DNA from: an uncultured Schlesneria sp.
GTDB taxonomy: Bacteria; Planctomycetota; Planctomycetia; Planctomycetales; Planctomycetaceae
Assembly: GCA_903899985.1 (NCBI GenBank)
Contig: CAIULL010000281.1
Span: 1-64,000, forward strand
Direction: 5' to 3'
Length of the DNA: 64,000 nucleotides
Positions 46,562 through 54,021 of this stretch are shown piece by piece. The position numbers and the translations under genes were made by a program. The notes below the pieces were generated by a model. The model did no database searches and was not told the origin of the DNA. It was given only the letters and a program-made list of their open reading frames with translations. How positions within the stretch are numbered: the first letter of the stretch is position 1; every line of letters begins with the position of its first letter.

Positions 46562-47020
46562 CTATTTCGCCTTGCGCTTCATTGATTTCAACAATTTCGG
46601 CAATTCTTCTTCAGCAACCACCCAGCCTCGGCACTTTGGGCTTCCGCACAAGCATTTGATTGCTCCGTGAGCGGCCCACTGGTAGTCGATCGTCAGCTCC
46701 GCTCCCTTGGGAATATCCATCAGAGCTTCGATCGTAATTTCCGAAGGAGCCGGGCTGCCGTCCTCATACGTCACTTCGGAAATACACAATGTGCTGTTCG
46801 GGGTGCAGCAGTGATTCAGGAACCGAAAAGGAGCGCGTGGCTCCAGTGACAGTGATCCGCCGAGATCGATGCAGTACGACGTGGCGTAATCGGGATCATC
46901 GATCACTCGCCCTTTGACTTGTCCGATAACCGTTCCCTTTGGAATGTCGTGACGAGCGAAAACGCCTTTACCAAACGGAACTTTTCCAACACGAACCAAA
47001 GATTCAACTACAGACGTCAT
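46562..47020 (-). CDS. SET-domain protein (putative protein lysine methyltransferase)
   Basis: A 152-residue minimal SET domain. Hallmarks are GKGVFARHDIPKGTVIG at the start of the domain, the SAM-binding NHCCTPN (69-75), ELTIDYQW (108-115) and a post-SET cluster with Cys123, Cys125 and Cys130 in CLCGSPKCRG. ATG 47020 follows AGGAG by nine bases. Longer in-frame starts (up to 47149) lack this. Such proteins use SAM to methylate lysine. The bacterial target is unknown. No pre-SET region. Confidence 0.88.
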   Translation of the reverse strand: MTSVVESLVRVGKVPFGKGVFARHDIPKGTVIGQVKGRVIDDPDYATSYCIDLGGSLSLEPRAPFRFLNHCCTPNSTLCISEVTYEDGSPAPSEITIEALMDIPKGAELTIDYQWAAHGAIKCLCGSPKCRGWVVAEEELPKLLKSMKRKAK

Positions 47021-47332
47021 GTCCATTGACTCCTCACGATTCTTCATCGTGGCATGTTTTCCCGGCATCCGCCAACAGGAATCATCGCGGCGGGAACGGG
47101 CGCGATGATCGGGCTGATCCCACGATACCATCCAACGCGACAGCGTCAACGGTTCGCAAAGAGGTTGTCCGTTTTCTTCGTACCGACGACCAGCCGACAG
47201 GGCTCATTTTCGTCGGCAACGGAGAGTTGCGGCGACAGTCCATGGTTTCGCGTGTTTCAGGTCAAAACGACTGACACATTCAGTGACTCATATCACGAAT
47301 CGCCTGGTTCTGCTTTAAGGAATTAAGCCTGA
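47021..47332. other. Intergenic region between the TIGR03009 and SET genes
   Basis: About 310 bases. The SET gene should be driven from here, and the TIGR03009 gene ends at its lower edge. No supported ORF, no hairpin recognised. Confidence 0.35.
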
Positions 47333-48832: not shown

Positions 48833-49336
48833 TCACGCGAAGTCGTTTGCAGCGCGTTCCGTGATTTTCATTCGATTCGATTTACAAGGCTTTGAAAGCA
48901 GCAGCCAAACCGAGGCGAGAGTGAATGGGACGGTGACGGACCAATAGGGAATTGAGCAAAAAGAACCATGAGAGGAATCACCCGTCATTTGGGTGGTAAA
49001 TTCACCCGCTTCAAATCCGAGAAAACGCCATCGCCATACCGGCTGATCAGCGGCATCGTCAACAATCGTGAAATCGAGCGCACAGCTATGCCACACCGGA
49101 ACCATTGTTGGAAGCAACCCTTCGATATCATAAGTTGTCTGCCACGTCAGATTTTGCTCCGCTGACATAAATAGCTCGCAGGCATTCGAGCTGCTGGTCC
49201 AGGAGATGGAGTCAGCAACGAAAATGCTCCGTAACCACCCTCCCATGAACACGCACGACATCAACAGCAGCGACAGCCCGATCTTCCGTCTCCAACCACG
49301 GGAAAAGCGAATCAAGAATTTGAAAAAGTCACTCAT
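48833..49336 (-). CDS. Array paralogue 1: small two-TM protein
   Basis: A 167-residue member of a five-copy family. An N-terminal basic stretch with GWRRKIG precedes TM1 (LSLLLMSCVFMGGWLRS). An extracytoplasmic domain of about 85 residues with a paired-Trp motif (VWRWRFLGFEAG) leads to TM2 (IPYWSVTVPFTLASVWLLLS) and a short basic tail. ATG 49336 is preceded by GGGGCGTGAATC, in which TGA is the stop of paralogue 2. No database family is recognised. It is the last gene of the array. Confidence 0.72.
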   Translation of the reverse strand: MSDFFKFLIRFSRGWRRKIGLSLLLMSCVFMGGWLRSIFVADSISWTSSSNACELFMSAEQNLTWQTTYDIEGLLPTMVPVWHSCALDFTIVDDAADQPVWRWRFLGFEAGEFTTQMTGDSSHGSFCSIPYWSVTVPFTLASVWLLLSKPCKSNRMKITERAANDFA

Positions 49337-49339
49337 GAT

Positions 49340-49849
49340 TCACGCCCCTTCGTTTGCAATCGGTTCAGTGAGTTTCTTTTGATCCAATTCGCGGGGCCTG
49401 GGGAAAAGCAAGAAGGTGGCGATGAGAGTCAGCGGGATGATGACAGACCAGAAAGGGATAATCCAAACGTGGGCCGACATCCCCTTTAAATGTGTTTTGC
49501 TTGCACCGTAACCGAAACCTCCCCATTTCCACTGCCAAACGAGAGTATTTTCAATGATTGGGGAACAGGAAAAATAATGTTTGACCTTGTAAGAATGTAA
49601 CGTCACTGGAAACTCCGCTCCAATTCCACCGAGGCCCGGTTCCACTTCGTATCTGTGCCAACCCAAACTCCCTTGCAGCGAGACAATTTCGCCATACCAG
49701 GGGAGTTGAGGCCAATAGAAAGAAGGGCAGAGATCGATCTCGTCACGTATGACATCGCTTCTCAGCCAAATGAGCGTCAATGTGCACGCCATCAATAGCG
49801 CGATACTGCCGATCTTCCGTTGCCACGGTTTAAAAAACTCATCCATCAT
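49340..49849 (-). CDS. Array paralogue 2: small two-TM protein
   Basis: A 169-residue paralogue with the same plan: MMDEFFKPWQRKIG, TM1 (SIALLMACTLTLIWLRS), middle domain with LVWQWKWGGFGYG, TM2 (IPFWSVIIPLTLIATFLLF) and tail ending PIANEGA. The start ATG lies directly next to the stop of paralogue 3 and is preceded by GGGGATC. Function unknown. The middle domains of the copies are far more divergent than the membrane segments. Confidence 0.72.
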   Translation of the reverse strand: MMDEFFKPWQRKIGSIALLMACTLTLIWLRSDVIRDEIDLCPSFYWPQLPWYGEIVSLQGSLGWHRYEVEPGLGGIGAEFPVTLHSYKVKHYFSCSPIIENTLVWQWKWGGFGYGASKTHLKGMSAHVWIIPFWSVIIPLTLIATFLLFPRPRELDQKKLTEPIANEGA

Positions 49850-50336
49850 TCAGATCCCCACGTTGGCAGCAGGTTCGTTGATTTTCTTCAGGTTCGATGT
49901 TTTTGGCTTTTTGAGGAGAAGGAAGGCGGAAAGAACTGTCAAAGGAATAACGATGGACCAGTAGGGGATCAGCCAAAATATGAGTCGGCTGCCGTTCGCT
50001 CGACTTTCCAGATATTCGGCACAACCAAATCCCCAGACACGGTAATGCCACGCCAGTCTGGCATCCGGGAAAAGGTTCTTTGAAAGTATGATGCGCAGTC
50101 GCGTGGCTGGCCCAACTGAATCGAGTTGTACGATGTAAGCCAAGACGTTCGAATTGGTATTGAACTCCAAATAGCTGATCTTCCGAAAATACCGTGACTG
50201 CTGAATGAGCTCCAAGTGGAATGACGGCAATATCGATCGCCACGATACTCTTGACCCATCCAGCCAGGAACACGCAGGCGACAAGCAGCGTCATCACGCC
50301 AACCTTCTTTCGCCATCCGCTGAAAAACCCGTTCAT
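49850..50336 (-). pseudogene. Array paralogue 3, frameshifted
   Basis: The N-terminal half (MNGFFSGWRKKVG, TM1 GVMTLLVACVFLAGWVKS) is in one frame and the C-terminal half (WHYRVWGFGCAEY, TM2 IPYWSIVIPLTVLSAFLLL, end EPAANVGI) in another. The switch maps to about 50155-50205, where the minus strand has a TTTT run. Removing one T would restore a full-length paralogue of about 161 residues. It is either a real frameshift or a sequencing error. The start keeps the array junction motif GGTCGTGAATC-ATG. Confidence 0.7.
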
Positions 50337-50719
50337 GATTCACGACCCTTATTTGCGATGGGCTCGACGATTTTCATCGGAATTGATTGGCGAGTCGTTG
50401 AAAGCAGCAAATACGCCGAGAGCAGGGTTAGAGGGATGACGACGGACCAGTACGGAAGCTGCCAGAGATAAAAGCCCGTCCCCCCCGCTGGCCTGCCGTG
50501 TTTGCCGATCGCCAAACTTGCGATTCGTTCAATTCGTCCTTGATGAGATCTCAACCAGCCTGCACGGAGTCGCAAGACTTTGGGTATCTTCTCGCCGGTG
50601 TGGATCTTGATGACATCCGTCGCCGACAGACTTCTCACCCAAACTGCGGCAAACGCGCACGCCATCAGCAGCGTCAGCACGCCAATCTTTCGTCGCCACC
50701 CTTTGAAAAACTCAATCAA
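50333..50719 (-). CDS. Array paralogue 4: shortened two-TM protein
   Basis: A 128-residue paralogue with a shorter middle domain. It starts with TTG at 50719 after GGAGCGTGAATC, the same junction as in copies 1 and 3 with ATG replaced by TTG. IEFFKGWRRKIG and TM1 (GVLTLLMACAFAAVWVRS), then TM2 (QLPYWSVVIPLTLLSAYLLL), are intact. The end reads through the usual stop (IANKGRES) and overlaps the next start as ATGA, consistent with a one-base loss near the end. Confidence 0.68.
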   Translation of the reverse strand: MIEFFKGWRRKIGVLTLLMACAFAAVWVRSLSATDVIKIHTGEKIPKVLRLRAGWLRSHQGRIERIASLAIGKHGRPAGGTGFYLWQLPYWSVVIPLTLLSAYLLLSTTRQSIPMKIVEPIANKGRES

Positions 50720-50722
50720 GAT

Positions 50723-51190
50723 TCACGCTCCTTCGATGGTGCCGGGTTCAGTGAGTCTCGTTTGAGACGACTTGCGGGGCTTGCTCAGGAGCAGAAATGC
50801 TGAGACGACGGTCAGCGGAGAAATGAAGAACCAACAAGGTATAAGCCAAATCCTCGCATAAGAACCATCGTTGTAATGATGATTGCAAGAGCCAAGTCCG
50901 TACCATTGCCAATCAATTTTAAACCGATTGAAAAACATCTCTCGGATAAATAATGAGCTATCTGTTTCCCATTCAGGATAGCTGGACAGCGGATCGGATA
51001 CGTCGTCGTCTGCACCCCAAATCATCAAGCCATCCAATAGTGCCAGTGTTTGCTCGGTTCGTCCTCTGCTTGCGAACAATAAGTGATCACAATAGGTAAA
51101 ACTCCGCACCCACCCCGCCATGAACATGCAGGCCATCGCCAGCGTGATCAAGCCGATTTTTCGTCGCGAAGGCTTAAAGAACTGACCCAT
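50723..51190 (-). CDS. Array paralogue 5: small two-TM protein (first of array)
   Basis: A 155-residue paralogue, first in the direction of transcription. MGQFFKPSRRKIG and TM1 (LITLAMACMFMAGWVRS) are followed by an acidic middle domain with IDWQWYGLG, TM2 (IPCWFFISPLTVVSAFLLLS) and tail EPGTIEGA. ATG 51190 is chosen because it aligns with the starts of the other copies. A longer frame to 51262 adds 24 residues without similarity. Confidence 0.72.
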   Translation of the reverse strand: MGQFFKPSRRKIGLITLAMACMFMAGWVRSFTYCDHLLFASRGRTEQTLALLDGLMIWGADDDVSDPLSSYPEWETDSSLFIREMFFNRFKIDWQWYGLGSCNHHYNDGSYARIWLIPCWFFISPLTVVSAFLLLSKPRKSSQTRLTEPGTIEGA

Positions 51191-51654
51191 GATTTTTCCC
51201 GGACGACTTCCGATGACGAGCACGGCCTTAAGTGTCTGATTCGCATAGGAATACAATGTCAAAATGTCTTTAGTGCGTCAATCACGGCTCTTCAAAGCCC
51301 GACTTCCGATCCTCGACATTGCGGAACACGATGCGTTGATTGTCAGATCGCCAGGAATCTTTCCGATGCCGGCAGCATCGGCGACGTGGCCGGCGCTGCT
51401 CGCGTCGGAACCAATTGGACGACGACTCCATCTTTGCTGACCGTTAACTCAAAAAATCAAGAAGAATTCAGAAGAGACCTTCGGTCCGTCCCATGTGCGA
51501 GGTCAGGAGACCTGCGCACAACACAAACTGCTTGCTCAAGAGACGTTTCAATCACACAATTGGCGGTTTGACGCTCGTATCCATTGTGGCTTATGATCAC
51601 CAATTCGAACCAAAACGTGGCGTCCCCATGTCGTTCCTCTGAGGAATCCCCTCG
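51191..51654. other. Divergent intergenic region between the array and the DUF1501 gene
   Basis: About 460 bases, expected to hold promoters for both the paralogue array (minus) and the DUF1501 gene (plus). No supported ORF and no strong hairpin seen. Confidence 0.4.
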
Positions 51655-53043: not shown

Positions 53044-53094
53044 TGCAGGATCTATGAGCAGGTGAGTTTTCATATTGAAAATGGACGGAAACTT

Positions 53095-54021
53095 ATGCTG
53101 ATCGGTATTCGTCCCATTAATGACTTCGCGTTCAAGAAAACCTTTGGATCGCCCGAGAACAAGCTGGCTTTGATCAGTTTGCTCAATTCTATCCTTGGAC
53201 TGCCGAAGCCGATTGTTGATCTCACCATTGAAAACCCGTATAGCCTCCAGGACTTCAAGGACGATAAACTTTCGATCCTCGATATCAAAGCGATTGATCA
53301 GGCTGGCGCGATCTACGATGTCGAGATGCAGTTGTCGATTTTTACTGGATTGATCCAGCGGATTGTCTTTTACGGGTGCGAAATCTACGCCGACCAACTG
53401 AGATCGGGCGATGACTACGCATTGCTGAAGCCCGCCTATTCCATCTGTCTGCTCGACGGCGTCTTGTGGCACGATTCGAAGAAAGTCCATCATGCCTTCC
53501 GATTTACAGATCAGGAATCGGGACGGACGTTGAATGACACTTTAGAAATTCACACGATCGAGTTGGGGCGGTATAATCTTCAAGAGAAGGATTTGGCTAC
53601 GGCGAGTCTGCTGGATTGTTGGCTGTACTGGCTGCTCCACGCCCACGAATACGAACCAGAGGAGTTGTTAAAACTTTTTCCCCAAGAAGCAATTCGTCAG
53701 GCGACACAGACCATCACCCAGATTGCAAAAGTGACCGAGGATAAAGCGATGTATGATTCACGAGAAAAAGCGATTCGCGACCAGCAATGGTTACTGAATG
53801 CTTCACGAAACGAGGGGCTGATTGAAGGCGAGACAAAAGGAAAGATCGAAGGAGAGATCAAAGGAGAGATCAAAGGAGAGATCAAAATGATTCGAATGCT
53901 TCAAGAGATTTTGGGGCTTCCTGTCAGCACCGACTCGGATTTTGAAGGGAAAACTTTGGTGGAACTTCAGTCACAAACGGCAGATCTTCAAGATCGCGTG
54001 CGAAACCGTCGTGTTTCCTGA
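53095..54021 (+). CDS. Rpn family recombination-promoting nuclease / putative transposase
   Basis: A 308-residue PD-(D/E)XK nuclease of the Rpn (TIGR01784-like) group. The start IGIRPINDFAFKKTFGS and LISLLNSILGLP are typical. The catalytic core is LDIKAIDQAGAIYDVEMQL (Asp, Glu-x-Gln). The C-terminal part has an in-frame 12-base repeat encoding GEIK three times (about 53846-53887) before a helical tail. Rpn proteins are DNA-damaging toxins proposed to defend against phage, with a shorter protein made from inside the gene as inhibitor. The ATG at 53095 is preferred to 53062 because it aligns with the family N-terminus. Confidence 0.85.
   Translation: MLIGIRPINDFAFKKTFGSPENKLALISLLNSILGLPKPIVDLTIENPYSLQDFKDDKLSILDIKAIDQAGAIYDVEMQLSIFTGLIQRIVFYGCEIYADQLRSGDDYALLKPAYSICLLDGVLWHDSKKVHHAFRFTDQESGRTLNDTLEIHTIELGRYNLQEKDLATASLLDCWLYWLLHAHEYEPEELLKLFPQEAIRQATQTITQIAKVTEDKAMYDSREKAIRDQQWLLNASRNEGLIEGETKGKIEGEIKGEIKGEIKMIRMLQEILGLPVSTDSDFEGKTLVELQSQTADLQDRVRNRRVS
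53749..54021 (+). CDS. Possible intragenic antitoxin (RpnS-like) start inside the Rpn gene
   Basis: An in-frame ATG at 53749 lies eight bases after a GAGG, inside the Rpn coding sequence. Translation from here gives a 90-residue protein containing the GEIK repeat and the C-terminal helices but no nuclease core. This matches the layout published for E. coli Rpn genes, where the internally started short form neutralises the toxin. Expression here is inference. Confidence 0.45.
   Translation: MYDSREKAIRDQQWLLNASRNEGLIEGETKGKIEGEIKGEIKGEIKMIRMLQEILGLPVSTDSDFEGKTLVELQSQTADLQDRVRNRRVS

Follow-up and report, generated by a model that had tools for sequence, protein, structure and literature searches.

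Whether domains that differ strongly between neighbouring gene copies are evolving fast, or have each been kept, is the question raised by a tandem array of small membrane proteins in the genome of an uncultured Schlesneria sp. (Planctomycetaceae). The array consists of five genes, copies A, B, C, D and E, which lie head-to-tail in this order on the minus strand at 48833-51190 of a 64,000-nucleotide stretch of DNA (the window; GenBank assembly GCA_903899985.1, contig CAIULL010000281.1, positions 1 to 64,000). The proteins share an N-terminal anchor with a first predicted transmembrane helix (TM1), a middle domain, and a second helix (TM2) followed by a short tail. An earlier note, made from the sequence alone, took the middle domains to diverge fast between conserved anchors and suggested surface variation, toxin/immunity or recognition. 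The evolutionary pattern found here, well supported within a clade of close relatives, is a different one: middle domains that are unlike among paralogues are conserved between species.

Middle domains within and between genomes

Among 1522 pairs of paralogues from the same genome, the median identity is 58% in the N-terminal part and 39% in the C-terminal part, but 19% in the middle (maximum 39%). The latter value is near chance, as shuffled middles reach a best identity of 0.23 on average. Thus, the middles do differ strongly among paralogues, as had been described.

The comparison between species involved three close relatives (G001, G004 and G005), which were set against the own genome (G000) and against one another. 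Full-length copies of the fetched loci, 24 of them from the own genome, yielded 50 reciprocal-best pairs with a middle identity of at least 0.55. In these pairs the middle is 84% identical, with a ratio of nonsynonymous to synonymous substitutions (dN/dS) of 0.24, while the N anchor shows 79% and 0.28, TM2 80% and 0.26, and the tail 49% and 0.65. Nine single-copy pairs chosen by synteny gave similar values, namely, 84% and 0.21 for the middle, 81% and 0.26 for the N anchor, 81% and 0.37 for TM2, and 42% and 0.57 for the tail. The middle stands above the N anchor in 36 and above TM2 in 30 of the 50 pairs (5 and 7 of the nine syntenic ones). Judged by identity and dN/dS, the middle is therefore at least as conserved as the anchors. 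Insertions and deletions are rare, with 11 gap columns against 4688 codons in the middles of close species.

These results speak against the fast divergence proposed earlier. Middle dN/dS is below 1 in 50 of 50 pairs, dN is not raised between close relatives, and conservation of the middles across species, which had been named as the refuting observation for hypervariation, is found within the close clade wherever orthologues could be found. Antigenic-style variation is rejected as the principal explanation because of this conservation. Under such an arms race the middles would be hypervariable recognition or decoy domains, directed at phage, predators or kin, and the anchors would be their scaffold. 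The chance-level similarity of paralogous middles, the turnover of arrays between species, the presence of a different middle at a few syntenic positions and the lack of copies in three of 15 genus genomes are all compatible with it. However, single copies keep their middle in nine of nine syntenic comparisons, the reverse of what is expected of a variable antigen, and together with the high identity and low dN/dS this makes the arms-race explanation distinctly unlikely. Recognition in the general sense of binding is possible, and the few syntenic changes of the middle accord with it, but its hypervariable form is not upheld. Gene-conversion antigen systems, such as pilin and Vls loci, combine conserved ends, a diverse middle and several copies. 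The present family resembles them in its few cases of a changed middle between kept anchors and differs in that its middles are conserved between close species and its anchors show hardly any concerted evolution.

The array, its architecture and its family

A family profile of 106 members, from which the copies of the window had been left out, was searched against the 913 open reading frames (ORFs) of at least 40 amino acids (aa) in the window. It recovered exactly the five array genes, with matches from E 1e-44 (copy E) to that of copy B, and copy C as two half-matches (1.2e-22 and 1.5e-22). The next-best ORFs outside the array had E values of 0.18, 0.66 and 1, and a shuffled control of the 913 ORFs gave three matches at E≤1. 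The description as five consecutive paralogous genes thus stands, except that copy C is not one open frame and copy B is short. In copy C, TM1 and part of the middle lie in one frame and the remainder in another, the position of the change having been placed from tblastn ends. The counterpart in G005 (L160:5362-5901) is an open frame, and an error of the draft assembly may be the cause of the split. The short form of copy B is kept in G004 as a 127-codon ORF (middle 83% identical, dN/dS 0.15), so it does not reflect a recent deletion. Orthologues of copy E occur in G001 (middle 88%) and G004 (77%), and of copy D in G005 (91%), which also holds that of copy C; copy A has no orthologous middle in any of them (best 0.27 among the copies compared). 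The motifs reported earlier are common to the array, but copy A departs from two of them, with PSRRKIG and IPCWFF.

The two transmembrane segments per protein claimed for the array are indicated by hydropathy and agree with a structural model of copy E, in which two helices flank seven strands. This model, built with 110 sequences, has a mean predicted local distance difference test (pLDDT) value of 87.5 and a predicted template modelling (pTM) score of 0.74; the model of copy B is weaker (pLDDT 74.4, pTM 0.55) and has four strands. The net charge is positive in the N-terminal part of 110 of 110 members and in the tail of 77, and negative in the middle of 79. These charges favour a cytoplasmic location of both ends. 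A 525-aa ORF of the own genome (L054:2749-4323, contig C128) contains two family units in a row and is consistent with both ends lying on one side of the membrane. A 358-aa family ORF in G005 (L255:5153-6226) is likewise long enough for two units. Foldseek found no match to the beta domain at E≤0.001 in PDB or BFVD (best PDB E 8e-3), VIA-align gave best Z values of 4.5 for copy E and 7.2 for the lower-confidence model of copy B, and the best sequence match in PDB had E 0.08. The lack of a match in structure libraries is not evidence of a new fold.

The family has no name in the libraries scanned, as the earlier note had supposed. Six window translations reached no Pfam or NCBIfam cut-off, and five gave no PHROGs match at E≤1. 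Among 110 members the best E values were 0.0029 in Pfam (best 25 of 34 families) and 0.0023 in NCBIfam, and no family matched more than four members. PMC11812302 and the passages of PMC3906078 that were consulted contain no description of it. DUF1559 (SBP_bac_10), a pseudopilin-like family, is a well-known expanded family of planctomycetes with many paralogues per genome and one N-terminal membrane helix; it has no Pfam match to any window copy, and two helices are predicted in the array proteins. A zinc-ribbon relative with a CGYDLR motif is not supported, since the motif is found in 0 of 30 relatives, and a shorter pattern occurs in 3 of 99 phylum genomes in ORFs of different architecture.

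The own genome (8.0 Mb, 296 contigs) contains at least 32 copies on 19 contigs, a count derived from 35 ORF hits with frame-split copies counted once. Besides the five on C281, there are further arrays of six copies on C146, four on C46 (at a contig end) and two on C267, as well as fifteen single copies, some of them partial or at contig ends. Profile matches were found in 12 of 15 sampled Schlesneria genomes, 3 to 101 in each (own genome 40), and genus genomes of at least 7.5 Mb have 22 to 101. The three without any match (G008, G009 and G014) are among the smaller genomes (4.7-6.8 Mb). No matches occurred in 10 genomes from the family but outside the genus, or in 15 from the class but outside the family. 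In a named collection, 54 of 56 loci belong to Schlesneria, and the other two come from a metagenome-assembled genome labelled 'Planctomycetota bacterium'. None of 37 pattern stretches in viral contigs is a relative, and plasmid and phage records gave no match with copy B, the sole query.

To look outside the genus, 294 phylum genomes were sampled. Apart from the own genome, one of them had a strong match (G251, a member of the same family with a single copy, E 2.5e-21), and weak matches at E≤0.1 came from 15. In a sample of 297 class genomes, the 17 at E≤0.01 comprised nine Schlesneria, G251 and seven weak matches. Because at most 12 candidates were scored per genome, weak relatives may be missed in both samples. 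Six of the seven weak relatives have the helix-WVRS, S..G and PYW-helix features or part of them, and L214 does not. In the six unnamed proteins of this kind (L209, L210, L211, L212, L170 and L171), TM1 ends in W(V/M/I)(R/H)S, most middles contain S..G, and PYW or PHW followed by TM2 is present in five. They differ in their weak family-profile matches (E 6.7e-8 to 4e-3 per genome), in yielding a single match in each genome (12 candidates scored), and in an extra C-terminal hydrophobic stretch in three, and profile-profile similarity is limited to 47 columns around the first helix. A profile of five weak relatives with no Schlesneria row matched one own copy at E 1.8e-7, the sole match at E≤0.001 in the own genome (24 of 66 candidates scored). 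With L171 as the query, matches were obtained in 2 of 120 family genomes, namely, its own gene and L196, the frame of which looks spurious. The profile matches, weak but reciprocal, make a wider, sparse, unnamed two-helix group in Planctomycetota likely, but not proven; the test is partly circular, since the members were found with the Schlesneria profile. Overall, the family is a real, unnamed expansion at the genus level, and sparse single genes in other parts of the phylum are probably its relatives.

Junctions, shared leader and neighbouring genes

The sequence GG-N-N-CGTGAATC ahead of the start codon, reported for three junctions, is exact at A-B, B-C and D-E, three of the four. At A-B and D-E the upstream gene contributes its final codons and stop (GGnGCG TGA), and ATC separates this stop from the next start codon. 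At B-C the frame of copy B reads through, and its stop overlaps the start of copy C (ATGA). In the window array, neighbouring genes overlap by up to 4 nt or are separated by at most 3 nt. Among 109 copies without a detected upstream copy, the positions of AATC before the start are occupied by A, A, T and C in 56, 64, 61 and 72%. AATC therefore belongs to the unit itself, and the view that the duplication units include the short intergenic junction is borne out.

A leader precedes the first copies of many arrays (26 rows, 17 distinct after duplicates had been removed by hand), and that of copy A is common to G001 and G005 copies with unrelated middles. Its core, ATTGACGCACTCAAGACATTTTGACATTGTA, searched with up to three mismatches, has 12 matches among 10 genus genomes, five of which have any, while the reversed pattern used as a control has none in the same 10. 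Eleven of the 12 lie shortly ahead of a family copy; the twelfth (G004:C203:4200) has no family copy directly after it. The core has no match in the three copy-less genus genomes, nor in the copy-bearing G002 and G007. The core may act as a promoter. The coordinates of the array, the leader and nearby features are given in Table 1.

Table 1. Features of the array region, in window coordinates.
Feature	Position	Strand	Description
Copy A, first array gene	50723..51190	minus	155 aa, ATG start, TM1 - middle domain - TM2; profile E 3.9e-44
Copy B	50333..50719	minus	128 aa, TTG start, 58-residue middle; profile E 2.7e-38
Copy C	49850..50336	minus	Split over two frames, frame change near 50083
Copy D	49340..49849	minus	169 aa, start 49849 or 49846; profile E 1.2e-41
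Copy E, last array gene	48833..49336	minus	167 aa; predicted TM1 15-37, seven strands within 40-130, TM2 132-147
Family-associated promoter-like element	51252..51282	minus	61 nt ahead of copy A start
Wider leader	51202..51318	minus	83% identity over 118 columns to leader of a copy from a G005 array; included in a 192-column match (82%) to a G001 leader
SET-domain protein gene	46562-47149		Pfam 1.7e-14; 92-96% identity in close relatives
Rpn-type recombination-promoting nuclease / PD-(D/E)XK transposase-like gene	53062-54018		Two genes from the array; contains a short repeated Gly-Glu-Ile-Lys stretch
Short dispersed repeat	51362-51416		Between array and DUF1501 gene
Short dispersed repeat	51451-51523		Between array and DUF1501 gene

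The neighbourhood of the copies was surveyed in the own genome by simple ORF picking, and 59 of the 63 ORFs picked were scanned. Their matches fall into 74 Pfam families, each found three times at most (DUF1501 three, SpoU two, ParE two). PADLOC found at most two proteins per model, with many overlapping helicase models (best 25 of 50 families) and no pattern. These data bear on the suggestion that the copies form a toxin/immunity repertoire, in which immunity proteins or small membrane toxins would be kept in tandem. Orphan immunity arrays are tandem arrays of divergent small membrane proteins and look similar. However, no toxin family or other partner gene recurs beside the own copies (ParE in 2 of 59), the single copies are stable in all nine syntenic comparisons, and the search of plasmid and phage records with copy B was negative, so such a role is very unlikely.

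In the window, the array is flanked by genes for a SET-domain protein, a TIGR03009-like protein (below cut-off), a DUF1501 protein and an Rpn-type nuclease. The SET-domain protein occurs here in a bacterium. Both dispersed repeats have copies of 76-92% identity at many unrelated sites in the own genome and its relatives, and the second forms closely spaced inverted pairs on C227 and C130, resembling repetitive extragenic palindromes (REP) or miniature inverted-repeat transposable elements (MITE).

Turnover of the arrays and the proposed role of the proteins

Single copies and arrays behave differently over time. At six own loci the same middle was found in nine of nine syntenic single-copy comparisons (identity 0.72 to 0.98), comparisons with a flank shorter than 300 nt, a flank identity of 65-67% or a partial copy having been set aside. 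The C146 array keeps four of its six own members in G001, three in G004 and two in G005. The C46 array keeps two of four in G001 and one of four in G004 (contig ends), and C267 one of two in G001.

The best explanation overall, held with a confidence somewhat short of even, is a genus-level expansion of small inner-membrane proteins with a docking role and separate binding roles. Each copy would start with a positively charged cytoplasmic segment and one membrane helix (..WVRS). Next would come an all-beta domain of some 90 residues outside the cytoplasm, and after a second helix (PYWSIVIPLTLLSAYLLL) the chain would end in a short cytoplasmic tail that evolves fast. The arrays would be operons, probably with coupled translation, and many of their first genes share the promoter-like element. 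The helices, alike across paralogues, probably serve as a shared surface by which the proteins dock to a single membrane partner or to each other, while each beta domain probably binds an extracytoplasmic partner or ligand of its own. This functional part, shared docking with separate conserved partners, has a little less than an even chance of being correct. New types may have arisen mainly through tandem duplication, with the outer domain diverging early; in a few places the entire outer domain may have been replaced while the anchors on either side were retained. Purifying selection would have followed, with arrays losing and gaining members and single copies mostly staying.

Several observations weigh against this explanation. 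The middle dN/dS of 0.21-0.24 exceeds that of the flanking genes (0.107, with dS 0.51; 16 of 17 genes tried had a counterpart). For one of these flanking genes, L039:3340-4161, dN/dS is above 1 in each of the three comparisons, and the frame used is probably wrong. The choice of the 50 pairs by middle identity favours conserved middles, and the nine syntenic pairs, which avoid this selection, stem from six loci. In a set of more distant congeners (G006, bin-10000, RYN_441, SZAS-6 and three small samples), no match of at least 0.55 was seen for any of the 25 own middles, and only two reach 0.35-0.55. Since orthologous middles are almost absent there, conservation is demonstrated only within the close clade; loss and divergence of the distant middles are inseparable, because the copies were only partly sampled and a flanking protein is 45-60% identical in five other genus genomes, versus 78-90% in the close three. 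The second C267 copy, with both flanks syntenic in G001, has a middle identity of 0.16 between anchors with DNA identities of 0.77 (N) and 0.83 (TM2), which lie above 98.7% and 99.9% of 6046 unrelated-middle pairs. An unrelated middle between such like anchors points to replacement at that site and not to gradual divergence. Finally, the absence of matches from three of 15 genus genomes makes the family look dispensable, no recurrent neighbouring gene reveals the supposed common partner, and no named relative in the libraries scanned supports any function.

The dS of the middle (0.35 and 0.39) is below the flanking baseline, which may reflect ascertainment or recent exchange. In two interspecies pairs (L051/L246 and L239/L253) the middles are 97-100% identical; the first anchor and middle together are 93-100% identical and the flanks mostly 77-94%, and recent exchange between species is possible.

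A second changed middle is that of the third C146 copy in G004, with TM2 identities of 0.82 to G000 and 0.86 to G001 and middle identities of 0.20 and 0.21. As two syntenic positions thus combine like anchors with unlike middles, replacement of whole middles does happen. Cassette exchange could then be the main engine of diversification, with the anchors serving as homology arms between which recombination swaps middles among loci. Five of the 6046 unrelated-middle pairs have an anchor identity of at least 85%. In one of these five, both copies come from a single G004 array (N 0.91, middle 0.23), and the first of them has a middle that is 93% like that of an own C46 copy. A paralogue from the same genome is closer than the orthologue in the C part in 17 of the 50 pairs (tail included, gaps counted as mismatches), in the N part in seven and in the middle in none. 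On the other hand, paralogous anchors are barely more alike within than between genomes at third positions (N 0.481 vs 0.477, permutation p 0.07; C 0.412 vs 0.406, p 0.04). The anchors also follow the middle in most ortholog pairs, the N anchor in 45 and TM2 in 44 of 50 being above the 90th percentile of unrelated-middle pairs, and no middle was replaced in the nine syntenic single-copy comparisons. Exchange as the main engine is unlikely. Pervasive gene conversion of the anchors, first suggested by orthologues whose anchors diverged more than their middles, finds little support, as a larger set and the within/between comparison left only a weak effect and much of that anchor divergence sits in the tail.

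The arrays could also be largely inert duplicates, relics that persist by chance and decay. Copy C and the copies on C9 and C99 are frame-split, others are truncated, and three genus genomes lack the family altogether. The frame breaks may be draft-assembly errors, however, and with 24 own copies passing the full-length filter and a middle dN/dS below 1 in every ortholog pair, decay is highly improbable.

The preferred explanation, an expansion of docked proteins with separate binding roles, can be extended to a more specific but doubtful proposal. Schlesneria species would possess, spread over the genome, between some tens and about a hundred binding modules docked at the membrane. Their shared helix pair would fit into a single membrane machine used by all, and their unrelated outer domains would each address a different partner, the specificities having arisen by abrupt replacement or very rapid early divergence before being frozen by purifying selection.

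The expectation of hypervariation for this locus is corrected by the present data. An unnamed family, which can account for as many as 101 profile matches in a single bacterial genome, shows a sharp contrast between anchors that are alike among paralogues and outer domains that are unlike among paralogues yet conserved between close species. Annotation of planctomycete genomes gains a family, a predicted topology, a candidate promoter and a test set. If the docking idea is true, these proteins would represent a natural set of modules that combine a fixed membrane part with many different, conserved binding parts.

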